A DNA stretch of 64,000 nucleotides from Buttiauxella sp. A111 (lineage in GTDB: Bacteria > Pseudomonadota > Gammaproteobacteria > Enterobacterales > Enterobacteriaceae): NCBI RefSeq assembly GCF_014189855.1, contig NZ_BJFN01000002.1, forward strand, positions 186,001-250,000. Reading direction: 5' to 3'. A model generated the notes under the pieces. It was not told the DNA's origin. It saw only the letters and a program-made list of their open reading frames with translations, and made no database searches. Positions 36,089-57,220 of this stretch are shown here, in pieces. The translations under genes and the position numbers were made by a program. Within the stretch, counting starts at the first letter, position 1. Every line of letters starts with the position of its first letter.

Positions 36089-36287
36089 CCGTTCACCCGT
36101 GCGTTTGGCTATCTCTGTAACCGTTGCTAACGGTGAACGTGCCAGGAGGATTACGCCATCCTCCTGGCGACCTCGGCGCCCGGTTTTAAATTGCCGGGAG
36201 TCCGGGTTCTTAGGGTGGCGACGGTGGCCACCCTAAGTCGTTCACCGGTTCGGTAACTGCATATAACGGAAGACTTCGGGTGAACGG
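36089..36287 (+). repeat. Short copy of the stem-variable palindromic repeat
   Basis: A 199-bp element bounded by CCGTTCACC and GGGTGAACGG. It holds two perfect hairpins: GCCAGGAGGA/TCCTCCTGGC (36141-36150 and 36159-36168, loop TTACGCCA) and CTTAGGGTGGC/GCCACCCTAAG (36209-36219 and 36227-36237, loop GACGGTG). Its two ends match the two ends of the 538-bp copy at 56683-57220 in opposite orientation, but the central part is missing. The junction lies in TTGCCG (about 36191-36196), a sequence present at both edges of the missing part. Confidence 0.85.
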
Positions 36288-36369
36288 AACCTTTTCGACA
36301 CTGACAAAGTGCCCCTCTCCACCTAACCTCAAAAAGATGACTAAGAGACAGCCAGATGGCGATGCCCCC

Positions 36370-37566
36370 CTATTTCTGTCGAATCTGCCAAACCCACAAC
36401 CCGCCGATAGCCAGCGCAAACACTGCCCCAAAGCCAATGCCAATACCGACAATCGGCGCACCGGTTTTTACCGCCAGTGAGTAAAGCCCCAACATCAGCA
36501 ACATCGCGGTATTTTCACCGAGATTCTGCACTGCAATGGCATTCCCCGCGCCAACCGAATGTTTGCCTCGCTCCTGAAGAAGTGCGTTAAGCGGAACAAC
36601 GAAGAACCCGCCCAAAATACCAATCAGCACGAGCAGCATGTAAGACGGCAGCAACGCGTTTTGCATGGCAAAGAACAAAACGCCAACGCCGATCAAAATC
36701 CCCGCCGGCATACACCGCGCTACAGTTTTCAGTGTCACCAGTTTTGCCGCAGCCCCTGCACCAACCACGATGCCCACTGCAACCATGGCATTCAGATACG
36801 TTGGCGTCGCGTTATCGGTAATTCCCAGCGCCACCGGCACCCATAAAACCAGTAAGAAACGCAACGTCACGCCCGCGCCCCAGAACAAGCTAGTGCCAAC
36901 TAACGAGAAACGAGTTTCACCATTTTGCCAAAGTGTACGGCAGGCATTGAAGAAACTGCGGGTCATCGGGGTAAAACGCCAGGACTGCCCAGGACGGGCT
37001 GGCGCAAGTTTCGGAATAAAAATATTCGCCACGACCGCCCCGGCATACACCAGTACACATACGCCAAGTGCCGCAACAATATGCCAATCAGCCAGCACAC
37101 CGCCCGCCATAGAACCCAGCAGAATGGCAGCAATGGTCGATGACTCCATCAGGCCATTTGCCTTAACCAGACGATCGCCAGTCGTTAACTCACCAAGGAT
37201 TCCGTATTTAGCCGGTGAATACGTCGCAGCACCTATACCCACCAGCGTGTAACCGATAAAGGGATTGAGCCCAAAACAGATAACCGCCGCGCCGATTAGC
37301 TTAAGGCTGTTGGCAAACATCATCACTCGCCCTTTGGCAAAGCTATCAGCCACCTGTCCGACAAACGGGGCAAACAAAATGTAAGCGCCGACAAATACCA
37401 TCTGCAAAACGGGCTGGCTCCAGTCGGGATAGAACTGCTGCTTCAATACCGCCAGAGTTGCAAACAGCAAAGCGTTATCACCAAACGCCGATAAAAATTG
37501 CGCGCAAGTGACTGCCATCATGCCCCTGGACCAAATGGAGGTATCGTTCACGGCGCTATCACGCAT
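36370..37566 (-). CDS. lplT: Lysophospholipid transporter LplT
   Basis: LplT is an MFS protein that flips lysophosphatidylethanolamine inward across the inner membrane for re-acylation by Aas. The 398-residue product has 12 hydrophobic segments. It has MFS-type loop motifs after TM2 ([14 protein letters not shown], about 65-78) and the [12 protein letters not shown] segment typical of LplT. Its start overlaps the aas 3' end by 8 nt (37559-37566), so the two are one coupled operon. Confidence 0.95.
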
Positions 37567-39718
37567 GCTTTGTCTCCGGTTGGTCTACCATTGCTTTCAG
37601 GCTGACAAAATCAGGTTTACCACTACCCAACACAGGTAACTGTTTCAGGAAGCGGATATCTCGTGGTACAGCCAACTCAGGCACACCATGGGCGCGAGCG
37701 TATTGCAGCAGTTTTTCTCGATTGAGTTCGTTATCCGTGGTGTACATCACCAATGCTTCACCTTTCGCCGCATCCGTTTTGATAACGGTTGCATGCATTT
37801 TCTCTGGTGAAACACCCAGCGCCAGTTGCTCGACCATTTCCAGCGAAACCATTTCACCCGCAATTTTGGCGAAGCGTTTAGCGCGCCCCTGAATCACACA
37901 AAAACCCTGCTCATCGAATCTGACAATATCACCCGTGTCATACCAACCCGCTTCCACTTCGCCCTGCGCATTTTCAGCACTCGGCGCTTCCAGCACGCCT
38001 GGGTTTTCGACTCGCAGGTAACCCTTCATGATGTTCGGCCCTTTCAGTTGCAACCGCCCACCGTTTTCAATACCGGGTACCGCCATCAGACGGGCATCCA
38101 TCGCTGGCAAAATACGCCCCACCGTGCCTACTTTTGCCGCCATAGGGACATTAATTGAAACGACTGGCGCGCATTCCGTAACGCCATAACCTTCAAGAAT
38201 ACGCAGGCCAAATTTATCCTGCCAAAGCTGCTTAGTGCTTTCCTGAAGTTTTTCTGCTCCCGCAACCACGTAACGCAGACGGAAGAAGTCATAAGGATTG
38301 GCGAAGCGTGCATAGTTGCCAAGGAAGGTCGAGGTGCCAAACAATACGGTGCAGTTACGGTCATAAACCAGTTCCGGCACAATGCGGTAATGCAGAGGGC
38401 TTGGATAGAGGAATACTTCGGCCCCTGTAAGTAGCGGGGTAAATAGGCCGACTGTCAGACCAAACGAGTGGAACAGCGGCAGTGCCGACATAAAGCGATC
38501 GTTGGCGGTGAAATCCGCGATAGTACGAATTTGCTCAACGTTCGCCAGTAAGCTTTTGTGGCTGTGCACCACACCTTTGGGATTTCCTTCCGAGCCGGAT
38601 GTAAATAACACCATCGCTGCATCTTCGGGTTGCTGTTTAACCTGTGCCAGGCGCGGCATAAATAAATGACTGAAAATCCAAATTTTATCGGCGAGCGTAA
38701 CATCGGCTTTTAAATCTTCCAGAAACACCCAGCGCACCTGCGAAAGTTGCTCTGGCAAATGCCATAACTTGCCTTTGTCGAGAAACTGACGGGAGGTGAA
38801 AATGGTTTTGAGTTGCGCGGCCGTAATCGCGCTGGTCAGCCCTTTCACACCTGAGGTGTAGTTCATCATCGCCGGAATGCGTCCGCGCGAAGACGCACCA
38901 AAAATCACCGCCGCGCTGATTGCCGCATTCGGCAACATCAGGCCAATCGTTTCACCAGGAGCGGTGTATTTATTCAAAATACGCCCGACAAACAGCGTTT
39001 TGGTCAGCAAGCTGCGGTATGTGTCGGGTTTGAAATTAATATCTTCGATGCAGTTTTTGCGCTCACCATAACGATATTGCGCGGCGAGTAACGCTTCGTA
39101 TAACGTCTCTCTTGGGCGCACAGCCATACGCGCTTCCATCATTATTTGATGCAGCATTTCTCCGGCCATTTTGCGGCGTTCACGCGCACGTGGCGCGTCC
39201 GGCATTGGAAGCGAGGTCGGTGGCAGGATATGCAGGCTGATACGTGGAAATAAGCGACGTTTGACTAACCCTTTCAGGCGGCTAAAGAACGTCAGTTCAG
39301 CTCCATCAATACGAATCGGGATGACCGTCGCATTCGATTTAGCAGCGACAAACCCGGCCCCTTCATAGATTTTCATCAAAGAACCGGTCACCGAGATACG
39401 TCCTTCCGGGAAAATAACCACCGGACGGCCCTGCTCAACCAGACGCACCAGATGTTTAATCGACATCGGTTTCGTTGGGTCAAGCGGCACAAAATCAATC
39501 AGTGATTTCAGCCAACGGATGTACCACTGCTGGCTAATGGAAGAATAGACGGCGAAAACCGGGCGCACCGGTAAAAATAGCGCTAATAAAATCCCGTCAA
39601 TAAACGAAACGTGATTGGGGACGATCAGAGTGCGCGATTGGGAAAGAACGTGTTGATCGCCATAAAGTCGTACTCTGAACAAAATACGAAATAGCGTCCG
39701 GAAAAAACCAAATAGCAT
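37559..39718 (-). CDS. aas: 2-acyl-glycerophosphoethanolamine acyltransferase / acyl-ACP synthetase Aas
   Basis: A bifunctional inner-membrane enzyme that activates fatty acids onto an ACP subunit and transfers them to 2-acyl-lysophosphatidylethanolamine delivered by LplT. The product has 719 residues as in E. coli. The N-terminal PlsC-type domain (about 1-190) has NHVSFID (H-x4-D, about 36-42) and FPEGRI (about 98-103). The C-terminal AMP-binding domain has [19 protein letters not shown] (about 370-388), [10 protein letters not shown] and [10 protein letters not shown]. It is the first gene of aas-lplT and lies downstream of omrA on the same strand. Confidence 0.96.
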
Positions 39719-39833
39719 AGCAACTCCCTTTGTCGTGAATAAGCCGCAGACAGTTAAGTGTAATGCCTGCAGATTACATGAGTAACATTAAAGGAGCGAT
39801 AGTGTGAGTGAATGTAAAGTCTGAAAAAAAGGC

Positions 39834-39921
39834 AAAAAAAACCTGCGCATCTGCGCAGGTTGGTGCAAAAGAATTGTACTTAACAACGTACCTAGAATTC
39901 TCACCAATCAATACCTCTGGG
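39834..39921 (-). ncRNA. omrA: OmrA small RNA
   Basis: An Hfq-dependent, OmpR-activated sRNA that represses outer-membrane protein, curli and flagellar mRNAs. It reads on the minus strand from the conserved 5' seed CCCAGAGGTATTGATTGGTG to the terminator ACCAACCTGCGC...GCGCAGGTTTTTTTT, 88 nt in all. The seed and terminator agree with E. coli OmrA as I know it; the middle (about 39860-39895) differs. It lies between aas and omrB, as in E. coli. Confidence 0.93.
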
Positions 39922-40041
39922 ATTTGAATTGTGGCGTACTCTTAGCAGGCTCACCAGTAAGAAAAAGAAAGGGAATTAGCGGAAAGTGCAACCAGGTGTT
40001 TAAAACATCTTTTCCTGTTACAGGCTGGTGAATTTTGGGCA

Positions 40042-40125
40042 AAAAAAAACCTGCGCATCCGCGCAGGTTGGTGTAATTCATGTGATCAGCATTAGATGCT
40101 GACATCACCTATCAATACCTCTGGG
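40042..40125 (-). ncRNA. omrB: OmrB small RNA
   Basis: The tandem paralogue of OmrA, with the same seed (CCCAGAGGTATTGATAGGTG) and the same terminator stem (CCTGCGCGGATGCGCAGG) with a nine-T tail. Its middle region contains an extra hairpin GTCAGCATC-TAAT-GCTGATCAC. It lies on the minus strand, 120 nt upstream of OmrA. Confidence 0.93.
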
Positions 40126-40275
40126 ACTTCAAATGTAGCAGTGGCTTGTGAGTTTTCGCCATGGCGAAATAGCAACAGCGCGATGCAAACTGTAAGCAAA
40201 GATTTGGCCTGAAATCTTTAAAAATCCAGAGCATGCCTTTTAATGCCGCTGCGCTTGAATTTCAGGGTCGCAAAA

Positions 40276-40394
40276 GTGTAACGATTACACTAAAAATGGC
40301 TGCATTTTGCTTTAGTTTGCGACGCGAACTACAGTTGCGCCCTTGAAGTAGCGCGCCTTTTCCGTAACACTTAAAATTGTGTAAACGCTTACCC
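40276..40394. promoter_or_regulatory. galR upstream operators (GalR/GalS-type boxes)
   Basis: GTGTAAACGCTTACCC at 40379-40394 fits the GalR box (GTG-x-AA-x-CG-x-TT-x-CAC type) and lies 17 nt before galR, consistent with autoregulation. A second palindrome, GTGTAACGATTACAC at 40276-40290, has the same half-sites but is 15 bp long where the consensus is 16, so binding by GalR itself is uncertain. Confidence 0.6.
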
Positions 40395-40411
40395 ACTCAG
40401 GAACACTTTCG

Positions 40412-41419
40412 ATGGCGACAATAAAGGATGTAGCAAAACTGGCAGGCGTTTCTGTCGCCACGGTATCTCGTGTCATTAATGATTCACCGAAAGCCAGCGA
40501 TGCGTCGCGTCAGGCAGTGACCAGCGCGATGGAAGAACTTAACTACCATCCCAACGCTAATGCGAGAGCACTTGCCCAGCAAACCACTGAAACAATTGGC
40601 CTGATTGTGGGAGATGTGTCCGACCCTTTCTTTGGCGCGATGGTCAAAGCCGTCGAGCAAGTGGCCTATCGTACTGGCAACTTTTTACTGATCGGCAACG
40701 GTTATCACAACGAACAAAAAGAACGTCAGGCCATAGAGCAGCTGATTCGCCATCGTTGTGCAGCCCTGGTGGTGCATGCAAAAAAAATCCCTGATAGCGA
40801 ATTGATTTCATTAATGAAACAGATGCCAGGCATGGTTGTTATCAACCGCATTCTTCCCGGCTTCGAACAGCGATGTGTGGCTCTGGATGACCGCTACGGC
40901 GCATGGCTTGCGACGCGTCATTTGATTCAGCAAGGCCATACCAAAATTGGCTACCTTTGCTCTAACCACCAGATTTCGGATGCAGAAGACCGTTTGCAAG
41001 GTTATTACGACGCGCTAACTGAACACGGTTTACCGGTCAACGATCGGCTAGTGACTTATGGCGAGCCCGACGAAAGCGGTGGTGAGCAAGCAATGACGGA
41101 GTTACTCGGGCGCGGCAGGCATTTCAGCGCGGTGGCGTGTTACAACGACTCCATGGCCGCCGGGGCAATGGGTGTGCTCAACGATAACGGCATTGATGTT
41201 CCGAAAGAGATTTCATTGATTGGCTTCGATGATGTATTGATTTCACGTTATGTCCGCCCACGTCTGACCACTGTTCGTTATCCAATAATCACCATGGCCG
41301 CGCAAGCCGCAGAATTAGCGCTGGCACTGGCTGAAAAACGCGAATTGCCGGAAATAACCAATATGTTTAGCCCAACACTTGTGCGCCGACATTCGGTGAT
41401 TTCACATTCTGATGAGTGA
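40412..41419 (+). CDS. galR: Galactose operon repressor GalR
   Basis: GalR is a LacI-family repressor of the gal operon and galP, relieved by galactose. The product has 335 residues (E. coli 343; the C-terminus is shorter). The N-terminal helix-turn-helix and hinge are MATIKDVAKLAGVSVATVSR followed by VINDSPKASDASR and the hinge helix ANARALAQQ. A periplasmic-binding-like sugar domain (about 60-330) ends with the SLIGFDDVLISRYVRPRLTT segment. It converges on the acetyltransferase gene with only 3 nt between. In E. coli, lysA follows galR; here a 5.4-kb locus is interposed. Confidence 0.95.
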   Translation: MATIKDVAKLAGVSVATVSRVINDSPKASDASRQAVTSAMEELNYHPNANARALAQQTTETIGLIVGDVSDPFFGAMVKAVEQVAYRTGNFLLIGNGYHNEQKERQAIEQLIRHRCAALVVHAKKIPDSELISLMKQMPGMVVINRILPGFEQRCVALDDRYGAWLATRHLIQQGHTKIGYLCSNHQISDAEDRLQGYYDALTEHGLPVNDRLVTYGEPDESGGEQAMTELLGRGRHFSAVACYNDSMAAGAMGVLNDNGIDVPKEISLIGFDDVLISRYVRPRLTTVRYPIITMAAQAAELALALAEKRELPEITNMFSPTLVRRHSVISHSDE

Positions 41420-41422
41420 TGT

Positions 41423-41872
41423 TTAAAGACTAAAACGATAAATGTGAACGGGCTTATTCGGGTAATCCAACCCGTCTCCGATGTACTGCCAGCCGAAACG
41501 CTCGTAGTACTCTTTACAGGCAGAGTAGAGATAAAGTTGTGGGTAGCCGAGTGTGCGGGCGTAATGGATAACGTATTCCTGAAGTTTTTCTCCGAGCCCG
41601 CGCCCACGCTGGTTTTCATCGATGTATAACGCAGCAAGCCACGGATAAAGATCCTGCCGGCTGATCAAATCACAGCGCCACAATCCTACCGTCCCGACCA
41701 ATTTCTCACCCTCTACAGCAACAAATGTCAGCGGCATTTCCCCTTCTCGCTGGCTTGTTGCGACAATCGAGGCGAAAAAGTCACGGCTGTCTTCAGTGCC
41801 GAACGCCTGCCACTGCCAGTCAATAACTTGCTGTGCATGCTGAGGTACGGCGTAAAGCGGCAGGATTTTCAC
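41423..41872 (-). CDS. GNAT family N-acetyltransferase
   Basis: A 149-residue acetyl-CoA-dependent N-acetyltransferase of unknown substrate. The GNAT core is visible: strand LVGTVGLWRCDL (about 56-67), the acetyl-CoA pyrophosphate loop YIDENQRGRGLGEKLQEYVI (about 84-103; R/Q-x-x-G-x-G/A) and the final LYLYSACKEYYERFGWQYIG segment. The start is GTG at 41872 and overlaps the stop of the upstream GntR gene by 4 nt (GTGA), so it is co-translated with it. It is the last gene of the inserted PTS/GH1 locus. A possible role in modifying a sugar or antibiotic cannot be inferred from sequence. Confidence 0.85.
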   Translation of the reverse strand: MKILPLYAVPQHAQQVIDWQWQAFGTEDSRDFFASIVATSQREGEMPLTFVAVEGEKLVGTVGLWRCDLISRQDLYPWLAALYIDENQRGRGLGEKLQEYVIHYARTLGYPQLYLYSACKEYYERFGWQYIGDGLDYPNKPVHIYRFSL

Positions 41873-42675
41873 ATTAACTTTCCCTGGAAAATAGGGACCG
41901 ACTCGAAAAGATAACCGTCAAAATCTGGCGCATCAGAATCGGACTGCTCCAGCAGGCTGTTTTTGACATTTTCCAGGTGTTGCCACATCGCCTGCCACGA
42001 CCCCATCACATCACGACGGCGCAGAGCTGCCAATATCGTTTGCAGGTCGCCAAGCCATTTCAGGCGATAACTGCGGGTATCAATATTTGAGCGTAATTTC
42101 TGCCACATCGGGCTGCTATCAAGATGACGCCAGATACTCTCCACCGTCGCCAGCAACATCTGGTTTTGCGAAGCGCCTGCCAAAACCAAATGAAACATCT
42201 TGCAGTTATCCTGGCTAAGATCGTTTATCGCAATGGCTCGCTGTTCCTGCTCAAGGATACGTTTAAGGTTATCGATGTCGGCTTTGGTCGCCATTTTTGC
42301 GGCAAATGCCGCAATGTTACTTTCCAGGAGTTGGCGTGCTTGTAGCATTTCAAACGGGCCAATATCGCTACTGAAAAAAGCCTCTTCTTCCGCTTCGTTT
42401 TCTGCCGGAACACGAGTGACATACACTCCCGAGCCCTGGCGAATATCCACCGTGCCTTGTAACTCAAGCATCAGCAAAGCTTCACGAACAATGGTGCGAC
42501 TGACACCGTAAGTCTCAGCAATATTACGTTCAGGCGGCAAACGCGAGCCAACCGGATACAAACCCTGCATAATTTGTGCGCGCAGATCCTCACCAATTTC
42601 CTGGTATTGTTTTTTTTCTGGCGAAAGCACTACCTTGTCCACAATATCACCCGCATTGTTGATTCTCAGCGGCAT
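41869..42675 (-). CDS. GntR/FadR-family regulator, UxuR/ExuR-like
   Basis: A 268-residue transcription regulator. It has an N-terminal winged helix (about 20-90; GSRLPPERNIAETYGVSRTI then VREALLMLELQGTVDIRQG) and a C-terminal FCD ligand domain (about 110-250). The segment GPFEMLQARQLLESNIAAFA and the end MWQHLENVKNSLLE...FDGYLFES closely resemble UxuR/ExuR of E. coli, which sense hexuronates. It is encoded third in the EIIC-GH1-GntR-GNAT run. The palindromes TTTGGTATACCAAA in front of the EIIC gene are of the UxuR operator type and are the likely targets, so it probably autoregulates this operon. The effector is unknown. Confidence 0.85.
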   Translation of the reverse strand: MPLRINNAGDIVDKVVLSPEKKQYQEIGEDLRAQIMQGLYPVGSRLPPERNIAETYGVSRTIVREALLMLELQGTVDIRQGSGVYVTRVPAENEAEEEAFFSSDIGPFEMLQARQLLESNIAAFAAKMATKADIDNLKRILEQEQRAIAINDLSQDNCKMFHLVLAGASQNQMLLATVESIWRHLDSSPMWQKLRSNIDTRSYRLKWLGDLQTILAALRRRDVMGSWQAMWQHLENVKNSLLEQSDSDAPDFDGYLFESVPIFQGKLM

Positions 42676-42731
42676 AGTGTTCTGCCGCTGATTAATATCC
42701 GCTAGCTTATCAAACTATCCATCTGAAAAGA

Positions 42732-44159
42732 TTATTTCCATTCATCATCAATATCGAGCTGTAAGACGCGAGACTCACTCAGCGCACGATACCAATGGGC
42801 CGATTTTTTCGCACGACGCTCGCGGTTATTTTGCAGATTGATTTCAATTAAACCATAGCGGTTTTTGAACGCATTCATGGGTGAAACGTTGTCTGTAAAC
42901 GCCCACAGCATGTAACCCTGGCAGTTTGCACCGTCTTCGCGCGCACGCAGCGTTTGGTACAGATGTTCGCTGATAAACGCAATGCGATAGTTGTCTTCAA
43001 TGACGCCGTCGGAATTGCGGAATTGCGCTTCATTTTCTGTCCCCATACCGCTTTCCGCGACAAACCATGGGATATTGCGATAGTCGGTTTTAATCCGCAT
43101 CGCCATGTCGTAAATAATGCGCGGATAAATTTCCCAGCCCCGTGACGTATTCATGCGCCGCCCCGGTAATTCAAACGGTTCGTAGTAATAAGCGGGATGG
43201 AAAGGCGTTTCTGGATTCCACGCACGCGATGGTGCTTTAACACGGTGCGGGTAATAGAGATTGATACCCAATTCATCGACCGTGTTTTCACGAATGATCG
43301 CCAGCTCTTCTTCCGTGTAATCCCACTGCACATGGTGTTTTTCCAGCAGTTCAATCAGTTGTTGCGGGTATTCACCGTGTACCAAAGGGTCTAAAAAAAC
43401 GCGGTTGTAGAACAGATCGTAAATCTGCGCGGCCTGCTGATCGTGTGCCGCACTGGATCGCGCATAGGTGACTTCCGGGTTGAGAATGCAGCCGACAGTC
43501 CCGCGATAACCTTTCTCGCGGAACAGTTTCACGACTTTCGCCGTGGCGAGGTTTTTATGGTGATTCCACTGCATCCATTTATGGGTGTTTTGCTCATACG
43601 GCCAGCGCAGCGCATCAAGGTAAACGCGCGTTTGCACCACAATCGGCTCGTTGAAGGTAAACCAGCGATTCACCTTGTGGGCGTAACGGGCAAAGACTTT
43701 TTCCGCATACAGCACATATAACTCAACGACTTTTTTCGATGCCCAACCGCCGTAGTTTTCGAATAGCGTGGCAGGCAATTCGTAGTGTTCAAGGCAGATC
43801 ATCGGTTCAATACCGGTACTCAGCATTTCGTCGAAAAGATTATCGTAATACTGCGCGTAATCTTCATCGATGATGCCATTTTCGTAATCGGTGAAAAAAC
43901 GTGACCAGTTTATCGAGGTGCGATAGTGCGTCAGTCCTGCCTGTTTCATCAGCCACACGTCTTCGCGGTATCGATTAATGAAATCCGTCGCGACTGCCGG
44001 GCCATAACCGTTGTGCCAGACGTGCCGGTCGTTTTTGTACCAGGCATCAAGCCAGGAATCCTGCCCTTCTTTTTTGCCGCTCCAGCCTTCAGTTTGCCAG
44101 GCCGAAGCCGCAGCACCGAGAATAAAATCTTTTGGAATGGTGACTTTTACGTTGCTCAT
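42732..44159 (-). CDS. GH1 6-phospho-beta-glucosidase
   Basis: A 475-residue glycoside hydrolase family 1 enzyme expected to split phosphorylated beta-glucosides delivered by the adjacent PTS permease. The acid/base glutamate is in WFTFNEP and the nucleophile in WFVAESGMG. The phosphate-binding Ser, Lys and Tyr of 6-phospho enzymes appear as Ser426, Lys432 and Tyr435 in DNVSPMNAFKNRYGL. The frame extends to 44222, but the ATG at 44159 is preceded by GAGGAAGGC and gives a normal N-terminus (MSNVKVTIPKDFILGAAASA). It starts 7 nt after the EIIC stop. Confidence 0.9.
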   Translation of the reverse strand: MSNVKVTIPKDFILGAAASAWQTEGWSGKKEGQDSWLDAWYKNDRHVWHNGYGPAVATDFINRYREDVWLMKQAGLTHYRTSINWSRFFTDYENGIIDEDYAQYYDNLFDEMLSTGIEPMICLEHYELPATLFENYGGWASKKVVELYVLYAEKVFARYAHKVNRWFTFNEPIVVQTRVYLDALRWPYEQNTHKWMQWNHHKNLATAKVVKLFREKGYRGTVGCILNPEVTYARSSAAHDQQAAQIYDLFYNRVFLDPLVHGEYPQQLIELLEKHHVQWDYTEEELAIIRENTVDELGINLYYPHRVKAPSRAWNPETPFHPAYYYEPFELPGRRMNTSRGWEIYPRIIYDMAMRIKTDYRNIPWFVAESGMGTENEAQFRNSDGVIEDNYRIAFISEHLYQTLRAREDGANCQGYMLWAFTDNVSPMNAFKNRYGLIEINLQNNRERRAKKSAHWYRALSESRVLQLDIDDEWK

Positions 44160-44166
44160 GCCTTCC

Positions 44167-48081: not shown

Positions 48082-48193
48082 GACGAGCTCCGGTAATCAT
48101 TCATTTTCTTCATTACGCCATAGAGTGTGATGAAGAAAAAATATCGATTTCTCGCAAGTCTATTCATATATGATATGGATAAAGGAGATAATC

Positions 48194-49117: not shown

Positions 49118-49118
49118 G

Positions 49119-50285
49119 TTACTGCTCGGTCGCAGGTTGTTGATGCCCGGTGCCATTGCTGAAGTTAATCAGGCAAATGATCAGCCCGATGGCTGCCAGC
49201 CCAGCCGCTGCAACCGGTACGGCGGTGAGGTCGAAACCGTGGGCAATGACGGAGCCCCCCACCCACGCACCTAACGCATTGCCCACATTAAAAGCGGCAA
49301 TGTTGAGCGTGGAGACCAGATTGGGCGCATCTTTGCCGTGAAGCACGACGTTGATTTGCAGCGCGGGAACGGTAGCAAACGCCGCCATCGCCCAGAGAAA
49401 CAGCGTGATTTCCGCAAGCCACATGCCATGGCTGGTCCAGTGGAACAGCAACGAGAAGAGAGCAATCAGGCTAAAGCTCAGGATCAAGCTAAAGGAAACG
49501 CGCCAGTCAGCCAGACGCCCACCAAGGATATTCCCGACGGTTAAACCCGCGCCAATCAGGAACAAAGTCCAGCTCACGCCCTGATGTGTCACTCCCGTGA
49601 CCTGTAGCAGCATTGGCGCAATATAACTAAACAGGGCAAACATCGCGGCGGCAAAAAACACCGTCATAGAAAGAGAAAGCCAAAGTTTGCCATTCGCCAG
49701 CGCGCTGACTTCGCGTTTCAGGTCGGTAGGCGTTTCTTCCTTTTGCGCGGGTAAACTGACAATCAGTGCCACAAATGCCACAACGCCGATAATCGCCACA
49801 CCCCAGAATGTCGAACGCCACCCGAACAACTGCCCGAACCAGGTGCCAATCGGCACGCCCAACACATTCGCTAATGTCAGGCCGGTGAACATCAACGCCA
49901 CAGCCGAAGCTTTGCGATTTGGCGCGACCAGACTGGCAGCCACCACCGCGCCAATACCGAAGAAGGCGCCGTGGCACAACGCCGTAATAATGCGAGCCAG
50001 CATCAGGAACGAGTAATTCAGCGCCAGCGCACACAGAATGTTACCGACAATAAAAATCACCATCAGCAGAATCAGCGAAAGTTTGCGCGGCAATCGTGCC
50101 GTCAGTAATGCCATGATCGGTGCGCCGATTGCCACCCCGAGCGCGTAGCCGCTAATCAGCCAGCCCGCTGAGGGAATAGAAATCGCCAGATCCCCCGCAA
50201 CATCGGGCAGCAGGCCCATAATAACGAACTCCGTCGTGCCGATGGCAAACGCGCTCATCGCCAGCGCGAGTAAGGAAACAGGCAT
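49119..50285 (-). CDS. MFS transporter, DHA1 family (AraJ/YdhP-like)
   Basis: A 388-residue drug:proton-antiporter-1 family exporter with 12 membrane segments. MFS motif A-like residues occur after TM2 (MALLTARLPRKLSL) and the typical DHA1 FAIGTTEFVIMGLLPDVA in TM1. The frame opens at 50336, but the ATG at 50285 has GGAG upstream and gives a normal cytoplasmic N-terminus (MPVSLLALAMSAFAIG). It converges on lysR with only one base between stop codons. In E. coli another gene set (ygeA, araE) lies here, so it is a lineage-specific neighbour. The substrate is unknown; it may export sugars or drugs. Confidence 0.87.
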   Translation of the reverse strand: MPVSLLALAMSAFAIGTTEFVIMGLLPDVAGDLAISIPSAGWLISGYALGVAIGAPIMALLTARLPRKLSLILLMVIFIVGNILCALALNYSFLMLARIITALCHGAFFGIGAVVAASLVAPNRKASAVALMFTGLTLANVLGVPIGTWFGQLFGWRSTFWGVAIIGVVAFVALIVSLPAQKEETPTDLKREVSALANGKLWLSLSMTVFFAAAMFALFSYIAPMLLQVTGVTHQGVSWTLFLIGAGLTVGNILGGRLADWRVSFSLILSFSLIALFSLLFHWTSHGMWLAEITLFLWAMAAFATVPALQINVVLHGKDAPNLVSTLNIAAFNVGNALGAWVGGSVIAHGFDLTAVPVAAAGLAAIGLIICLINFSNGTGHQQPATEQ

Positions 50286-50514
50286 GGAATAACTCCAGGT
50301 TGAATACCCCAGGTATGACGGGTATAGAAATAACAAAAGGCGGGAGAGCGAAGCTCAACCGCCAGATTACGGGGATGTCAGAGGTGCAGCTTGTATGAAA
50401 AACCGTGCGCTGCTTAACAAATTTATAACACACAAAACGCAGGAGGTGACCCGGCGAGCGCTAAGGATACTCTGCTTTATCCATTAACCCTCTGAACTTT
50501 AAAATAAAAAAAGA

Positions 50515-51210
50515 CTATTCTGCCAACATGAAATTGACTGCATCAGCTGCGTGAATAGCCGCAGTATCGAATACGGGTAGCGTGCAATCTTGCTGAGTGA
50601 GCAGCAAACCGATTTCAGTGCAGCCAAAAATCACACCCTGCGCGCCCTGCCCCTGCAATTCCTCAATCACCTGCTGATAAAAGTGCTTAGACTCGGCAGT
50701 GATTTTTCCCAGGCACAGTTCTTCGAAGATTATCTGATTAATACGCAAACGCTGTTCTTCGTTTGGGATCAACGATTCAATACCGAACTCGGCATGCAGG
50801 CGGCCCCGGTAGAAATCTTGCTCCATGGTGTAACGTGTGCCTAGCAGCGCAACACGCTGTACATTTTGCGCGGTGATGGCGCGCCCTGTTGCATCGGCGA
50901 TATGCAAGAACGGCAGCGTGCAACGTGACTCAATGTGGTGTGCCACTTTGTGCATGGTGTTGGTACAAAGTACGATGCCCTCGGCTCCGGCTTTTTGCAG
51001 GCCGAGCGCCGCTTGTGCCAGCATGTCGCCGGCTAAATCCCACTCTCCCTTGGCCTGACACGCTTCGATTTCATGGAAATCCACACTGTGCAGTACGATT
51101 TTGGCCGAGTGCAACCCACCTAAGCGCTGCTTAATCCCTTCATTTATCAAACGATAATAGGGGATTGTCGATTCCCAACTCATCCCGCCCAACAGACCAA
51201 TTGTTTTCAT
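50515..51210 (-). CDS. ygeA: Broad-specificity amino acid racemase YgeA (RacD)
   Basis: A 231-residue aspartate/glutamate-racemase-superfamily enzyme; E. coli YgeA racemises several amino acids such as homoserine without PLP. The two catalytic cysteines are in [11 protein letters not shown] (about 80-90) and [13 protein letters not shown] (about 190-202). The N-terminus [20 protein letters not shown] is nearly identical to E. coli. A GTG at 51213 also opens the frame; the ATG at 51210 matches E. coli and has AGGTGAC upstream. It is divergent from kdgF. Confidence 0.94.
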
Positions 51211-51341
51211 CACGTGTCACCTGTTCATATTTATTTCATTGGTTATATCAGAGAGATGACGCAATGCGAAAGCGTGATCGGCACTACAAAACGCCGGAGC
51301 CAACTATCGCAAAGGAATTTTTCAGGATACGATTATTTAAA

Positions 51342-51356
51342 TGAAACGTCGTTTCA
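51342..51356. promoter_or_regulatory. KdgR box upstream of kdgF
   Basis: A perfect palindrome TGAAAC-GTC-GTTTCA, with A/T-rich flanks, 19 nt before the kdgF start. It matches the KdgR operator consensus of pectinolytic enterobacteria. Its position overlaps the expected transcript start or leader, fitting repression. Confidence 0.85.
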
Positions 51357-51375
51357 CATGATAAGGAATCGAGAA

Positions 51376-51702
51376 ATGTTCACTTTTATTAAAGATACTC
51401 AATTGGAAGATTTAGGTGCGGGCGTCAGCCGCCGCATTCTCGCGCACGACGGTAAAATGATGGCGGTGCAGGTTAACTTTGAAAAAGGTGCCATCGGCCC
51501 GATGCATAATCACCCGCATGAGCAGTTAACTTATGTGCTGTCTGGCGAATTTGAATTCACTATCGGTGAAGAAACCCAGCGCGTTAGCGCAGGCGACACC
51601 CTGTATAAAGAACCTCACGTGATGCATGGTTGCGTTTGCCTTGCCGCAGGCACGCTGTTGGATACCTTCACTCCAATACGTGAAGACTTCCTGAAGAAAT
51701 AA
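51376..51702 (+). CDS. kdgF: Pectin-degradation cupin KdgF
   Basis: KdgF opens the ring of 4,5-unsaturated galacturonate released from pectin oligomers to give the open-chain keturonate (DKI), the step between Ogl and KduI/KduD. The product is a 108-residue single-domain cupin. The metal-binding HNHPHEQ lies at 44-50 and the second cupin histidines at His81/His84 (HVMHG). The frame runs back to 51214, but the ATG at 51376 has AAGGAATCG upstream, gives the usual N-terminus (MFTFIKDTQLEDLG) and follows the KdgR box. No other gene is co-directional upstream. Confidence 0.93.
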   Translation: MFTFIKDTQLEDLGAGVSRRILAHDGKMMAVQVNFEKGAIGPMHNHPHEQLTYVLSGEFEFTIGEETQRVSAGDTLYKEPHVMHGCVCLAAGTLLDTFTPIREDFLKK

Positions 51703-51710
51703 TTGCTGAA

Positions 51711-51750
51711 TGAACTGCTCTGAACTGGCGCAAAAGTCGGGAGCAGTTCA
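51711..51750 (+). terminator. Hairpin after kdgF
   Basis: TGAACTGCTC (51711-51720) pairs with GAGCAGTTCA (51741-51750) across a 20-nt loop. There is no T-run, so termination would be weak or Rho-assisted. Confidence 0.4.
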
Positions 51751-52022
51751 TCACTAATATAAATATAAGACGCTCCAGCCTGCATTTAACAAAACCCCCT
51801 CTCCGTTAATATTTACACACGAAACAAATAAGAAACCTTCATTATTGATAAAATAATAACCATATGATTTATATGATTATTTAAACAATAAAATAGTTAT
51901 CCTCTTCTGCAACTCTCTCCAATCGATAAGAAATTTATTCATCACTCCTTCGTCCCTATACCCTGACTTATTTCAGGTCATTTTTTAGCCGCAAAGGGAA
52001 AAACGCCACATGCATCAAACAA

Positions 52023-52114
52023 TCGAAACAGCGTTTCGACTTTGATCACATTTCCATGATTAATCGAATGACTCACTTACAAATAGTAATAAGATTATTT
52101 AAAACAATGTTTCA
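52023..52114. promoter_or_regulatory. KdgR boxes and CRP-like half-site in the togM leader region
   Basis: The 645-bp interval between kdgF and togM (51703-52347) is AT-rich and gene-free apart from two tiny frames. TCGAAAC-AGC-GTTTCGA at 52023-52039 is a KdgR-like palindrome overlapping a CRP-like TTCGA-N6-TCACA at 52035-52050 (8 of 10 core positions). TAAAAC-AAT-GTTTCA at 52100-52114 is a second KdgR-like box. This fits dual control by KdgR repression and CRP activation. Confidence 0.65.
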
Positions 52115-52228
52115 CAATTCAGGAACCACGGTTCGCATGTTTATGAAATCTGTAAATCCCCCACAGATATCAAAAACAGACACCGGTGATTTAATACTTA
52201 TTTATCAATCAATTATCAGGGAATGAAT

Positions 52229-52288
52229 ATGATATGTACGCCCACCGCTTTCCGACCCAGCCGTATGGATTTACGGGTGAGGCAATGA
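52229..52288 (+). CDS. Possible 19-codon leader peptide 1 upstream of togM
   Basis: ATG at 52229 follows CAGGGAATGAAT and encodes MICTPTAFRPSRMDLRVRQ before TGA. The stop overlaps the start of a second tiny frame (ATGA at 52285-52288). It is too short to judge by coding statistics; the support is only the ribosome site and the overlap. It could be chance. Confidence 0.25.
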   Translation: MICTPTAFRPSRMDLRVRQ

Positions 52289-52341
52289 GTTTCAAGAACA
52301 ATTTTGTAAAAACAATTTTTAAACCATTGATTGCCAGGTAG
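52285..52341 (+). CDS. Possible 18-codon leader peptide 2 upstream of togM
   Basis: ATG at 52285 is preceded by GTGAGG and encodes MSFKNNFVKTIFKPLIAR, a basic and amphipathic peptide. Its stop TAG (52339-52341) lies inside the AGGTAGG ribosome site of togM, 7 nt before the togM ATG. This arrangement would allow translation coupling with togM. Expression is not shown by the sequence. Confidence 0.3.
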   Translation: MSFKNNFVKTIFKPLIAR

Positions 52342-52347
52342 GTATGT

Positions 52348-53238
52348 ATGAATGAAAACAAAATGCTGGGATTGGCATGGATATCGCCCTACATAATCGG
52401 GTTGCTTATCTTTACTGCCTTCCCGTTTGTTTCATCTTTCTTCCTCAGTTTTACTGAGTACGATTTGATGAACCCGCCGGTGTTCACCGGTATTGAAAAC
52501 TATCGCTACATGTTGACCGAAGATTCACTCTTCTGGAAATCCATGGGCGTGACGTTTGCGTACGTGTTTTTAACTATCCCGTTAAAACTCGCTTTCGCAC
52601 TGGGTATCGCCTTTGTTCTGAACTTTAAACTGCGCGGCATCGGCTTCTTCCGTACTGCGTATTACATCCCATCCATTTTGGGTAGCTCGGTGGCTATCGC
52701 GGTTTTATGGCGTGCGCTGTTTGCTATCGATGGACTGCTCAACAGCTTTATCGGCGTGTTTGGTTTGGACCCGGTGAACTGGTTGGGCGAGCCTTCTCTG
52801 GCGCTGATGTCCGTTACGCTGCTGCGTGTCTGGCAGTTCGGTTCTGCAATGGTCATCTTCCTTGCCGCGTTGCAAAACGTTCCGCAATCACAATATGAAG
52901 CGGCAATGATCGACGGTGCGTCTAAATGGCAGATGTTCATGAAAGTGACGGTGCCTTTGATTACACCGGTTATTTTCTTCAACTTCATTATGCAGACCAC
53001 GCAGGCGTTCCAGGAGTTTACCGCGCCATACATCATTACCGGCGGCGGCCCGACTCACTACACCTACTTGTTCTCACTCTACATCTACGACACCGCGTTC
53101 AAATACTTCGATATGGGTTATGGCGCAGCGCTGGCGTGGGTTCTGTTCCTGGTCGTGGCGGTCTTTGCCTCCATCGCCTTTAAGTCATCGAAATACTGGG
53201 TGTTCTACTCCGCAGATAAGGGAGGCAAAAATGGCTGA
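52348..53238 (+). CDS. togM: Oligogalacturonide ABC transporter permease TogM
   Basis: An inner-membrane permease of the MalF/carbohydrate-uptake-1 type, 296 residues, with six predicted membrane segments. The conserved cytoplasmic EAA loop is EAAMIDGASKWQMFMKVTVP (about 190-209), which docks onto the ATPase TogA. The protein starts MNENKMLGLAWISPYIIGLL. The order M-N-A-B, the KdgR boxes and the neighbours kdgF, kduD, ogl and kdgM identify this as the Tog system of pectinolytic bacteria. It is the first gene of the operon and overlaps togN by 8 nt. Confidence 0.9.
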   Translation: MNENKMLGLAWISPYIIGLLIFTAFPFVSSFFLSFTEYDLMNPPVFTGIENYRYMLTEDSLFWKSMGVTFAYVFLTIPLKLAFALGIAFVLNFKLRGIGFFRTAYYIPSILGSSVAIAVLWRALFAIDGLLNSFIGVFGLDPVNWLGEPSLALMSVTLLRVWQFGSAMVIFLAALQNVPQSQYEAAMIDGASKWQMFMKVTVPLITPVIFFNFIMQTTQAFQEFTAPYIITGGGPTHYTYLFSLYIYDTAFKYFDMGYGAALAWVLFLVVAVFASIAFKSSKYWVFYSADKGGKNG

Positions 53239-54145
53239 TATTTCAAATAACCAGCTCGGGTCTACAAGCCAGACAGATTTGGCCGAGCAAGAAGTCGCAC
53301 GTACGTTACGTCGCGAAAAGATCAGCCGTACCATCCGCTATGTGGTGCTGATATTTGTTGGTCTGTTAATGCTCTACCCGCTGGTGTGGATGTTCTCTGC
53401 GGCATTTAAACCGAACCACGAGATCTTCACCACTCTGGGTCTGTGGCCGTCAAACCCAACCAGCGACGGTTTCGTCAACGGCTGGAAAACCGGTACTGAG
53501 TACACCTTTGGTCACTACATGTGGAACACCATGCAGTATGTGATTCCAAAAGTGCTGCTGACCATTATCTCTTCAACGATTGTCGCTTACGGCTTCGCCC
53601 GTTTCGAAATCCCGTTCAAGAAGTTTTGGTTCGCCACGCTGATTACGACCATGCTGCTACCAAGCACCGTGCTGTTAATCCCGCAATACCTGATGTTCCG
53701 TGAAATGGGCATGTTGAATAGCTATCTGCCGCTGTGGCTGCCAATGGCGTTCGCAACCCAAGGGTTCTTTGTCTTCATGTTGATCCAGTTCCTGCGTGGT
53801 GTTCCACGCGATATGGAAGAAGCCGCGCAAATTGATGGCTGCAACTCCTTCCAGGTGCTGTGGTATGTGGTCGTGCCGATTCTGAAACCGGCCATTATCT
53901 CCGTCGCCCTGTTCCAGTTCATGTGGTCAATGAACGACTTCATCGGGCCGCTGATTTATGTGTACAGCGTAGACAAATACCCAATTGCACTGGCGCTCAA
54001 AATGTCTATCGACGTGACTGAAGGCGCTCCATGGAACGAAATTCTGGCAATGGCGAGCATCTCCATTCTGCCATCGATCATCATCTTCTTCCTGGCTCAA
54101 CGCTACTTCGTTCAAGGCGTGACCAGCAGCGGAATTAAAGGTTAA
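53231..54145 (+). CDS. togN: Oligogalacturonide ABC transporter permease TogN
   Basis: The MalG-type partner permease, 304 residues, with a hydrophilic N-terminal stretch (about 1-45) and six membrane segments. The EAA loop is EEAAQIDGCNSFQVLWYVVV (about 195-214). The frame is open from 53120, but the ATG at 53231 has GGAGGC upstream and gives a standard permease N-terminus (MADISNNQLGS), overlapping the togM stop by 8 nt. togA follows after 13 nt. Confidence 0.9.
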   Translation: MADISNNQLGSTSQTDLAEQEVARTLRREKISRTIRYVVLIFVGLLMLYPLVWMFSAAFKPNHEIFTTLGLWPSNPTSDGFVNGWKTGTEYTFGHYMWNTMQYVIPKVLLTIISSTIVAYGFARFEIPFKKFWFATLITTMLLPSTVLLIPQYLMFREMGMLNSYLPLWLPMAFATQGFFVFMLIQFLRGVPRDMEEAAQIDGCNSFQVLWYVVVPILKPAIISVALFQFMWSMNDFIGPLIYVYSVDKYPIALALKMSIDVTEGAPWNEILAMASISILPSIIIFFLAQRYFVQGVTSSGIKG

Positions 54146-54158
54146 GTGAGGGAATATC

Positions 54159-55286
54159 ATGGCTGAAGTTATTTTCAACAAATTGCAAAAAGTGTACTCC
54201 AACGGCTTCCAGGCGGTTCATGGTATCGACCTGAAAATTGAAGACGGTGAGTTCATGGTTATCGTCGGCCCATCTGGCTGCGCGAAATCAACCACCCTGC
54301 GTATGCTGGCGGGCCTCGAAACCATCAGCGGCGGTGAAGTTCGCATCGGCGACCGTGTCGTCAACAACCTGGCTCCAAAATCTCGCGGAATTGCGATGGT
54401 GTTCCAGAACTACGCCCTGTATCCGCACATGACGGTGCGTGAGAACCTGGCGTTCGGCCTGAAACTGAGCAAATTGCCAAAAGATCAGATTGAAACTCAA
54501 GTTAATGACGCTGCAAAAATTCTTGAACTCGATGAGCTGATGGACCGCCTGCCGCGCCAGCTGTCAGGCGGGCAGGCACAACGTGTGGCCGTAGGCCGTG
54601 CGATTGTGAAAAAACCCGACGTGTTCTTGTTTGACGAACCGCTGTCTAACCTTGATGCCAAGCTGCGTGCGTCGATGCGTATTCGTATCTCTGACCTGCA
54701 TAAGCAACTCAAGAAGAGCGGCAAACCGGCCACCACCGTTTACGTGACCCACGATCAGACCGAAGCGATGACCATGGGTGACCGCATCTGCGTGATGAAA
54801 CTCGGTCACATCATGCAGGTGGACACGCCAGATAACCTCTATCACTACCCGAAAAATATGTTCGTGGCAGGCTTTATTGGCGCGCCAGAAATGAACATTC
54901 GCCCGAGTAAGCTGATTGAGAAAGAGGGTCGTCTGCAAATCAGCGTCGGTCATGACACGCTTGCCCTGAATGAGCGCCAGCAGAAGCGTTGTGCTGAATA
55001 CAAAGATCAGGACATCTTCTTCGGCATCCGTCCTGAATTTATTTCTCTCTCAGATGAACCGTTCGCTGACAGCCACTCCAGCGGTGAAATGGTACGTGTG
55101 GAGAACATGGGCCATGAGTTCTTCATCTACCTGAAAGTAGCTGATTTCGAAATGACCTGCCGCATCCCTTCCGATGAAGCTAAGCCAATAATTGAAAAGG
55201 GTCTTCACCGCAAGGTGTATTTCAAATTTGACATGGAAAAATGTCATATTTTCGACGCAAAAACAGAACAGAACATCTCTCTCTGA
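54159..55286 (+). CDS. togA: Oligogalacturonide ABC transporter ATPase TogA
   Basis: A 375-residue MalK/UgpC-type ATPase. Walker A is GPSGCAKST at 37-45, Q-loop near VFQNYALYPHM, signature LSGGQAQRVAVGRA (about 135-148), Walker B VFLFDEPLSNLDA and the switch His in YVTHDQTEAM. The C-terminal half (about 240-375) is the TOBE/OB-fold regulatory domain of the MalK group. In Walker A, the residue before the lysine is Ala (GCAKST) where Gly is usual. The start is preceded by GAGGGAATATC. Confidence 0.92.
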   Translation: MAEVIFNKLQKVYSNGFQAVHGIDLKIEDGEFMVIVGPSGCAKSTTLRMLAGLETISGGEVRIGDRVVNNLAPKSRGIAMVFQNYALYPHMTVRENLAFGLKLSKLPKDQIETQVNDAAKILELDELMDRLPRQLSGGQAQRVAVGRAIVKKPDVFLFDEPLSNLDAKLRASMRIRISDLHKQLKKSGKPATTVYVTHDQTEAMTMGDRICVMKLGHIMQVDTPDNLYHYPKNMFVAGFIGAPEMNIRPSKLIEKEGRLQISVGHDTLALNERQQKRCAEYKDQDIFFGIRPEFISLSDEPFADSHSSGEMVRVENMGHEFFIYLKVADFEMTCRIPSDEAKPIIEKGLHRKVYFKFDMEKCHIFDAKTEQNISL

Positions 55287-55301
55287 CAGGAGTCTATGAT
55301 A

Positions 55302-56591
55302 ATGAAAAAAGTGCTGTTAAGTACCCTGATTGCCTCCACACTCGGCATGGCTGCTGGCTCGGCGTTTGCGGCAGATGACGTTGATTTACGTATGTCCTGG
55401 TGGGGCGGTAATGGACGCCATCAGGTGACGTTAAAGGCAGTTGAAGAGTTCCAGAAACAACATCCAAACATTAAGGTGAAGTCTGAATACACCGGTTGGG
55501 ACGGCCACTTGTCCCGTCTGACCACCCAGATTGCTGGCGGCACAGAACCGGACGTGATGCAGACAAACTGGAACTGGCTGCCTATTTTCTCTAAAACCGG
55601 CACCGGCTTCTACGATCTGAATACCGTGAAAGATGAGCTGAATTTAGCGCAGTTTGATCCTAAAGAATTGCAGTCGACGACCGTCGATGGAAAGCTGAAC
55701 GGTATTCCGATTTCCGTCACCGCGCGCGTGTTCTATTTCAATGACGAAACCTGGAAAAAAGCGGGCATCGCTTACCCGAAAACATGGGATGAGCTGATGG
55801 CGGCGGGTAAAACCTTCGAATCCAAACTGGGCAAGCAGTACTTCCCGGTGGTGTTAGAGCATCAGGATACGCTGTCTTTGCTGCGCTCTTATATGGTGCA
55901 GAAATACAATATTCCAGAAATCGACACGACGAAAAAACAGTTCGGTTACAGCAAAGAACAGTGGGTTGAGTTCTTTGGAATGTATAAGAAACTCATCGAC
56001 AGCCACGTGATGCCTGACACCAAATACTATGCCTCATTTGGTAAGAGCAACATGTATGAGATGAAGCCGTGGATTGAGGGCGAGTGGGCCGGTACTTACA
56101 TGTGGAACTCCACCATTAAGAAGTATTCCGACAACCTTAAGCCACCAGCGAAACTGGAACTGGGCTCTTACCCAATGCTGCCAGGTGCCACTGACGCCGG
56201 TCTGTTCTTCAAACCTGCGCAAATGTTCTCTATCAGTAAAACGACTAAGCATCCGAAAGAAGCAGCGATGCTGATTAACTTCTTGCTGAACGAGAAAGCG
56301 GGTGTAGAAGCGCTGGGTCTGGAGCGTGGTGTTCCGTTAAGCAAAGCCGCTGTCACCCAATTGACTGCTGACGGCGTGATCAAAGATAACGATCCGGCGG
56401 TTGCAGGTCTGAAACTGGCGCAATCTCTGCCAAACAAACTACCAACGTCCCCGTACTTTGACGATCCGCAAATTGTGTCCCTGTTCGGTACCTCTTTGCA
56501 GTACATCGATTATGGTCAGAAAACGGTAGAAGAAACGGCTGCTGAGTTTGAGCGCCAGGGTAACCGGATTCTGAAGCGCGCAATGCGTTAA
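55302..56591 (+). CDS. togB: Oligogalacturonide-binding periplasmic protein TogB
   Basis: The extracellular-solute-binding protein (family 1) of the Tog importer, about 429 residues. It begins with a Sec signal peptide ending in AGSAFA-ADD (near residue 24), then DLRMSWWGGNGRHQ. The mature part has the two-lobed SBP fold with several Trp residues suited to binding sugars (WDGHLSRLT, NWNWLP, WIEGEWAGTYMWN). Two ATGs occur at 55296 and 55302; the second is 9 nt from AGGAG and gives MKKVLLSTLIASTLG, so it is preferred. It is the last gene of togMNAB and ends at a strong terminator. Confidence 0.9.
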   Translation: MKKVLLSTLIASTLGMAAGSAFAADDVDLRMSWWGGNGRHQVTLKAVEEFQKQHPNIKVKSEYTGWDGHLSRLTTQIAGGTEPDVMQTNWNWLPIFSKTGTGFYDLNTVKDELNLAQFDPKELQSTTVDGKLNGIPISVTARVFYFNDETWKKAGIAYPKTWDELMAAGKTFESKLGKQYFPVVLEHQDTLSLLRSYMVQKYNIPEIDTTKKQFGYSKEQWVEFFGMYKKLIDSHVMPDTKYYASFGKSNMYEMKPWIEGEWAGTYMWNSTIKKYSDNLKPPAKLELGSYPMLPGATDAGLFFKPAQMFSISKTTKHPKEAAMLINFLLNEKAGVEALGLERGVPLSKAAVTQLTADGVIKDNDPAVAGLKLAQSLPNKLPTSPYFDDPQIVSLFGTSLQYIDYGQKTVEETAAEFERQGNRILKRAMR

Positions 56592-56618
56592 TTATTCCTG
56601 GTTCCAGGTGTTATGTAT

Positions 56619-56641
56619 GGCCCCGCTTGCGGGGCTTTTTT
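56619..56641 (+). terminator. Terminator of togMNAB
   Basis: GCCCCGC-TT-GCGGGGC followed by TTTTTT, 28 nt after the togB stop. Confidence 0.9.
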
Positions 56642-56682
56642 AGTTCTGAAGAACGTGATTTATATTGAAAATAGCGAAGGTT

Positions 56683-57220
56683 CCGTTCACCAGAAGAACT
56701 CCGGTATATGGAACCACCGAACCGGTGAACGTCATAGGGGAGCCGCCGTCGCTCCCCTATGGACCCCGACTCCCGGCAAATAAATCGCCGCTGCGCGGTA
56801 AACACCGTTTTTCACCCAACATTCGCGGTCGTTCGCGATTCGTTCCCGACGATCGCTCTCTTTCGCCGCTCCCGGCGGCTCAACCACGACTGAAGGGCAA
56901 AAAACGGTGCGATTTAAGCCGGAACCAAAGTCAACGTCAAAACCTAAGGTCAAATGCCAAACCGGTTTTGACCTTGTTCCCGGTATAAATTGCCCCAGCG
57001 TTCCCCATAAGTCAGGGTGGCGTGGTCGGGAACCACGCCAGTGAGCGATCGCCTGGAGCGAATCGCGAACGACCCTGAACGTTGGGGATAAGCTGGGGTT
57101 TACCGCGCAGCGGCAATTTAAAGACCGGGCGCCGGGGTTGCCAGGGGGCTGGCGTGAGCCACCTGGCACGTTCACCGTTAACAACAGTTACAGAGATAAT
57201 CAAATGCGCGGGTGAACGGA
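56683..57220 (-). repeat. Long copy of the stem-variable palindromic repeat
   Basis: A 538-bp element bounded by CCGTTCACC and GGGTGAACGG and filling the space between the tog terminator and kduD. It has two end modules matching the short copy at 36089-36287 (in reverse), and two internal modules that are inverted copies of each other (56781-56889 and 57012-57120; both include CGCTGCGCGGTAAAC and GGTCGTTCGCGATTCG). Hairpins: 56733-56761 (11 bp, loop CGCCGTC), 57140-57167 (10 of 11 pairs), 57019-57039 (8 bp, loop CGGGA), 56865-56879 (5 bp, loop TCCCG). Open frames of 107 and 150 codons cross it on opposite strands, but they look like composition effects. Confidence 0.85.

Follow-up and report, generated by a model that had tools for sequence, protein, structure and literature searches.

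The repeated element TRIP1 of Escherichia coli, reportedly first described by Rudd in 1999, is a relative of the elements considered here, a dispersed family represented by two copies in a 64,000-nucleotide stretch of the Buttiauxella sp. A111 genome (contig NZ_BJFN01000002.1, positions 186,001 to 250,000; hereafter, the window). In the accessible text of PMC10888264, TRIP1 is recorded from E. coli K-12 with no function established for it; it is predicted to adopt a conserved double-Y RNA fold and suggested to be a non-coding RNA, and TRIP1a and TRIP1c occur in both orientations at their loci. TwoAYGGAY (RF01731), in which two GGA-loop hairpins sit on a common stem much as in the core of the window elements, is proposed to bind CsrA and, in contrast to the Enterobacteriaceae family of the window, is discussed for Clostridia (PMC4333381, in the part available). 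Within the family of the window copies, pairing is maintained in the terminal hairpin and in the core, and the structure is thus preserved. This conclusion is strongly supported by covariation measured against shuffled and slid controls.

The window family has the same branched core and layout as TRIP1, both are intergenic, and TRIP1b likewise lacks the core (TRIP1 as given in the accessible text of PMC10888264). A covariance model built from 24 Buttiauxella cores and no E. coli sequence (model R2) finds K-12 TRIP1a and TRIP1c at expectation values (E) of 1.5e-9 and 2.2e-9, and does not find TRIP1b, from which the core is absent. With blastn, TRIP1a matches the element at yegH at 85% over 189 nucleotides (nt), and the match of TRIP1 to the window element is weak (18/18 bases, and 59 nt at 75%, E 0.001). 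A TRIP1 element is one half only (0–5 copies, 99% at five loci, in the same partial source), whereas the window form is an inverted dimer. The terminal repeat is GCGCTCC/GGAGCGC in TRIP1 and GTTCACC/GGTGAAC in the window family, the terminal stem differs too, and the ANGGAU form of the TRIP1 loops does not occur in the window loops. Since the core is homologous while the terminal repeat and terminal stem differ in sequence, the window elements are, by sequence comparison, relatives of TRIP1 and not TRIP1 proper. A first, sequence-only reading of the window had known of no described family with this layout; given the covariance model match to TRIP1 (PMC10888264, seen in part), that statement does not hold.

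A full copy consists of two inverted halves; in each, an innermost branched core of about 150 nt is followed outwards by an 11-bp terminal hairpin and then by a GTTCACC/GGTGAAC helix. The core is predicted to fold into a long stem that carries two hairpins at its top, together with a small third hairpin. IS50/Tn5-like ends, in the copies that have them, lie about 35–65 nt outside the inner repeats, and the flanks of the own-genome copies align over this stretch. Both window repeats were confirmed where the sequence-only reading had placed them, as copies of one family that share blocks in opposite orientation, matching inversely over 114 nt at 85% and over 108 nt at 81%. The ends that it gave were too narrow: the flanks align beyond them, so that the element is longer than 36089–36287, with an IS50-like end at 36339–36351. 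Its two terminal hairpins stand, to which are now added covarying core stems with nearly fixed loops that it had not mentioned. The parts of the two copies, in window coordinates, are:

36089..36287, plus strand: short copy, core absent, from inner terminal repeat to inner terminal repeat, 199 bp; G009 is full-length at the same site
36141..36168, minus strand: left-type terminal hairpin GCCAGGAGGAT/ATCCTCCTGGC, 11 bp, from sequence and hairpin comparison
36190..36196, no strand: junction ATTGCCG at the site of the missing core, from alignment with G009 at the same site
36209..36237, plus strand: right-type terminal hairpin CTTAGGGTGGC GACGGTG GCCACCCTAAG, 11 bp, from sequence and hairpin comparison
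36339..36351, plus strand: right outer end GACTAAGAGACAG, IS50/Tn5-like, from comparison with the occupied site in G003 and nine empty sites
56683..57220, minus strand: full copy of two inverted halves, 538 bp
56684..56691, no strand: inner terminal repeat CGTTCACC, pairing with GGTGAACG at 56724–56731 (helix 2)
56733..56761, minus strand: right-type terminal hairpin, stem CATAGGGGAGC, loop GACGGCG on the minus strand
56772..56923, minus strand: branched core of the right half, from model R1 (G000:C2:242772-242923, minus)
56843..56849, minus strand: branch loop TCGGGAA, right half
56869..56875, minus strand: branch loop CCGGGAG, right half
56979..57129, plus strand: branched core of the left half, from model R1 (G000:C2:242979-243129, plus)
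57026..57032, plus strand: branch loop TCGGGAA on stem TGGCGTGGT/ACCACGCCA, left half
57052..57058, plus strand: branch loop CCTGGAG, left half
57140..57167, plus strand: left-type terminal hairpin GCCAGGGGGCT GGCGTG AGCCACCTGGC, one G.A mismatch
57169..57176, no strand: inner terminal repeat CGTTCACC, pairing with GGTGAACG at 57211–57218

As the sequence-only reading had noticed, loops agree between the two copies while stems differ (CTTAGGGTGGC with loop GACGGTG against CATAGGGGAGC with loop GACGGCG; GCCAGGAGGAT against GCCAGGGGGCT), and each stem pairs with its own partner over 11 bp, the GCCAGGGGGCT hairpin with its single mismatch. At the place of the short copy (site 1), the 199-bp copy corresponds to the G009 copy minus the core, joined at TTGCCG, a sequence found at both core ends of the full form in the alignment with G009. 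The same junction is seen at L002, for which a full counterpart with matching flanks exists in G009 (L165). Most simply, the 199-bp copy would be an internal deletion of the full form. At one further own-genome copy (L010, G000:C11), the spacer between the halves is an array of TTGAAG-like hexamers and is longer than in the other copies of this genome.

Covariation was measured first in the terminal module, for which 87 of 101 representatives were aligned (alignment A1). Here, 97.8% of the terminal hairpin cells are paired. Double-changed cells over hairpin and repeat helix number 265, every one of them in the hairpin, whereas 500 shuffles gave 62.4 ± 10.5 and none reached 265; sliding the partner strand reduces the count to 15–45. 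Compensated stem changes beyond chance, as the sequence-only reading had proposed, are thereby borne out. The repeat helix is nearly invariant within A1 and differs between subfamilies, with the form given above in TRIP1 and GTTCGC/GCGAAC in L276, L278 and L292. In the mixed core alignment (A2; 38 sequences, namely 37 of 42 and TRIP1a, with the row start of L189 wrong), 37/58 pairs are changed on both sides, and 215 double-changed cells compare with 86.5 in shuffles and 49–85 in slid versions. The 24 Buttiauxella cores give 30/58 such pairs and 147 cells (54.3 shuffled, 3–25 slid). Among 51 matches of the core model the figures rise to 54/58 pairs and 491 cells (174.5 shuffled, 92–118 slid), to be taken with caution in that this alignment was fitted to the structure. 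These matches comprise 48 distinct sequences from 34 loci, including four from E. coli, and some belong to the training set of model R1; L265 and L266 among them come from another genus than Buttiauxella, and the matches were used as totals only. An excess over shuffles could arise from kinship without structure; the slid controls keep the relatedness and come out far lower. The core structure comes from folding a single sequence (L016), a choice that in itself gives the unslid version an advantage, and RNAalifold on the mixed alignment returned only 18 pairs.

The loops of the core are conserved in a way that the stems are not. GGA occurs in each of the two branch loops in 49/51 model matches on differing stems, and ANGGA in 33/51 and 27/51, respectively; 30 of the 34 match loci come from 21 genera. 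In 142 distinct cores, 428 loops were predicted; GGA is present in 271 of them and TCC in 3. CsrA prefers GGA in a hairpin loop, with the consensus RUACARGGAUGU from systematic evolution of ligands by exponential enrichment and an ANGGAX loop on a stem (PMC7652899 and PMC4005645, each in the part available). The two loops of TRIP1a are ACAUGGAUGU and UUACAGGGAUGU, and a CsrA protein is encoded in the A111 genome. In 11/148 Buttiauxella halves (L013, L189, L190, L192–L194, L207, L211, L213, L219 and L223), an extra CACAGGGATGTG or CACACGGATGTG stands upstream of the terminal module, at no more than 260 nt from it, and may form an ANGGAX hairpin. The curated cut-off (43) of RF01731 is passed in 4/20 loci (L275 at 53.2, L287 and L290 at 49.2 each, L291 at 43.2), of which L287 and L290 are from one genus; these matches lie inside core model matches, and no match in the window exceeds the cut-off. 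The likeness to TwoAYGGAY consists of shared layout and score, and common descent from that family may be considered as a possibility.

How the stems change was followed in 161 of 168 terminal hairpins compared in a fixed register; those left out were three outside the length range and four with more than three mismatches in that register, three of which pair when shifted. The 161 hairpins take 60 distinct forms, 29 of them perfect; 106/161 hairpins are perfect and 154/161 have at most one non-Watson-Crick pair. A minimum tree joining 42 distinct arm pairs from Buttiauxella (144 hairpins) has 34 double pair changes that are Watson-Crick on both sides, 3 that lead to a mismatch and 1 that leads to a wobble; of the one-sided changes, 16 lead to a mismatch and 10 to a wobble. 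Independent point mutation with compensation in each copy might directly explain the stem pair of the window, and single-step intermediates do exist. Against this, the window stem types recur in other copies (CTTAGGGTGGC 22 times and GCCAGGGGGCT 7 times among the 161 hairpins) and, at site 2 (the place of the full copy), the flanks change together with the stem, which makes this explanation very improbable. Site 2 was compared between the window copy at 56683 and the G009 copy, which belong to different strains of the same species: left hairpin and near flanks differ together, and both hairpin types are also present in other copies. For these reasons the simplest reading of stem differences within a species would be short conversion between copies. 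The sequence-only reading had offered either selection on structure or a copying process that rewrites one arm from the other; maintained pairing holds, and copying would be right in part, in the different sense of such conversion.

A broader alternative is that a mutational process acting on DNA hairpins, through template switching between the arms or conversion, maintains the pairing of the palindromes, with neither RNA selection nor a cell function. The balance of changes on the minimum tree (34 double Watson-Crick changes beside 16 one-sided mismatches and 10 one-sided wobbles) fits such a process, as does a form with a one-sided mismatch, ATCAAGGGGTT/AACACCTTGAT, that links two perfect stem forms; the loss of the core at a short repeat suggests that palindromes serve as substrates, and the strand tests do not clearly favour RNA. 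Retention of GGA in both branch loops across the 34 loci while the stems change is left unexplained by it, and we consider this alternative unlikely.

The outer ends of some copies bear on how the elements move. Insertion of Tn5 makes a 9-bp target duplication, and CTGTCTCTTATACACA is what we take to be the Tn5 end sequence. With at most one mismatch, CTGTCTCTTATACACA occurs 40 times in 10/12 genus genomes, counted genome-wide wherever located (21 in G003), and the reversed control 0 times. Among 55 elements with two hairpins, an IS50-like end, allowing 3 differences in 14 bases from one or the other of two motifs, is found on both sides in 16, on one side in 15 and on neither in 24, against 0/110 shuffled flanks. 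Loci in which the number of detected terminal hairpins was other than two, 35 in all, did not enter this count, and some of the 55 are copies at the same site in two strains. One window copy has a single IS50-like end, with none found on the left of 36089..36287, and the other has none within the searched flanks of 56683..57220. Flanking 9-mers agree in exact place at 9/9 bases in L173, L179 and L253 and at 8/9 in L174, and with a one-base shift at 8 or 9 in L180, L183 and L192. Among the 16 elements with both ends, to which L253 comes in addition, agreement of at least 8/9 is found in 3/16 in exact place and in 6/16 with shifts of up to two bases, against 2/240 and 9/240, respectively, for mispaired flanks (left and right flanks of different elements). 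Site 1 is empty in 9/12 genomes, where a short hairpin such as CTCCTCTCC..GGAGAGGAG is present, and occupied in 3/12; the G003 copy at this site is inserted in the loop of this intergenic hairpin and flanked by a perfect 9-bp repeat, CTCAGTCCG. Site 2 gave no empty site, since among the ten other genomes only G007 has the flanking genes together, and there the site is occupied by a copy reversed relative to that of the window, probably an independent insertion. From the IS50/Tn5-like ends and from the 9-bp duplications in a few copies, both as in IS50/Tn5 (IS4 family) and derived miniature inverted-repeat transposable elements, an IS50/Tn5-type transposase most likely moved some Buttiauxella copies. 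Among the loci of other genera compared for such ends, L070 alone gave a match, weak and one-sided (3/12 bases off). At G007:C21:62675-62844, two opposed IS50-like end motifs with one mismatch each stand about 170 bp apart, perhaps a second, shorter element.

The insertion sites raise the possibility that the elements are bidirectional transcription stops or protectors of 3' ends that settle in terminator-like hairpins between convergent genes. Both window copies do lie between convergent open frames, and 12/16 copies with IS50 ends have GGAGAG or CTCTCC in their flanks, motifs also present in the short hairpins at empty sites. The TRIP1a stretch, however, contains 0 terminator-like sites against 1.5 in shuffles. 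The window stretch has 3, where shuffles have 1.7, and one of the three falls within the element (56700–56721); nor would a terminator need conserved GGA loops. We regard this explanation as improbable.

The family is widespread. Searches of the A111 genome gave 14 loci: the 199-bp query detected 13, and the 538-bp query alone added another. All 12 sampled Buttiauxella genomes contain matches, and the matching pieces number between 1 and 74 in each. Inverted core pairs are found in other genera too (L285, L287 and L292, for example). At E 1e-5 the mixed model finds the family in at least 47/198 genomes and at least 35/154 genera of the Enterobacteriaceae sampled, counts that are floors, since the filters were tightened and no more than 15 candidates were scored in each genome. 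A contig pattern scan, which was unspecific, is the source of some of the relatives among the matches listed. E. coli carries single halves (L040 and L041); part of the window element was matched in 3904/5426 E. coli genomes, and a 501-bp query around the yegH-side element in 5374/5426 (median 3 places), an upper bound because the query includes 26 bp of yegH.

TRIP1 and its predicted double-Y RNA fold were already known, as the accessible text of PMC10888264 attests. In the literature searched, in which subscription journals were mostly not covered, no link of TRIP1 to TwoAYGGAY or to CsrA-type loops was found, and the term 'TRIP' is absent from the available part of a CsrA paper (PMC8144298). 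As far as this literature extends, three things are new: the inverted dimer that in Buttiauxella has IS50-like ends, covariation as measured here, and the connection of TRIP1 with TwoAYGGAY and CsrA-type loops.

Taken as a whole, the explanation that we favour, with a probability of roughly 0.5, is that these are non-autonomous mobile elements of the TRIP1 family whose stems are kept for RNA folding and whose GGA loops bind CsrA. RNA of the GGA strand, arising from read-through or from an own promoter, would have to fold, and the stems would be kept for that reason. The two GGA loops would bind CsrA, each copy acting as a small CsrA-binding RNA or as a read-through tail. Short gene conversion may spread ready-made stem types within a species, with no need of a double mutation each time, and a transposase of the IS50/Tn5 kind would have moved some of the Buttiauxella copies.

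Several results weigh against this explanation. The number of hairpin pairs with any double change (9/11) was matched by 273/500 shuffles and is not above chance, and further pair types did not exceed shuffles in the A2 core (53 of 500) or in the 24 Buttiauxella cores (242 of 500). Strand energy was rejected as evidence for RNA: the sense strand folds better in 76/77 representatives, and shuffled letters give an equal mean difference (-10.24 vs -10.55), so that base composition accounts for it. Wobble pairs exceed A-C mismatches on the GGA strand, significantly in one filtered set only (A3, p 0.02) and in no set under a symmetric filter. Promoter-like sites are at chance (1 vs 1.0 for TRIP1a, 1 vs 0.6 for the window copy), and a transcript of the full element, an inverted dimer, would also hold one antisense half. 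The window loops TCGGGAA, CCGGGAG and CCTGGAG have no A before NGGA, which makes CsrA binding less certain for the window copies than for TRIP1. As to mobility, 24/55 two-hairpin elements are without an IS50-like end, 10/16 elements with both ends show no clear 9-bp duplication, and CTGTCTCTTATACACA at up to one mismatch has no match in the A111 genome. The inside of the Buttiauxella elements is TRIP1-like, unlike IS50/Tn5, and the PF14706 (Tn5-type) transposase was found in 0/12 genus genomes; a co-occurring transposase, for which the sequence-only reading had suggested looking, did not appear in this form, and the mover would thus be absent or of another sequence type.

Elsewhere in the window, GcvB lies at 5845–6050 (plus strand), three tandem tRNA genes at 10336–10687 (plus strand) and an OmrA/OmrB pair at 39834–40125 (minus strand). 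A separate inverted repeat pair is formed by 10800–10870 and 62277–62347 (71 nt at 77%).

A covarying family with GGA loops gives TRIP1 a testable function, and in Buttiauxella the same module is part of elements with IS50 ends, so that a decoy for a regulator would be mobile. More tentatively, and with some doubt on our part, TRIP1, the TwoAYGGAY-like copies and the Buttiauxella elements may form one superfamily of mobile RNAs with paired CsrA-binding loops. If so, a transposable element would have spread decoys of a global regulator through the Enterobacteriaceae, their stems free to vary provided that pairing is kept.

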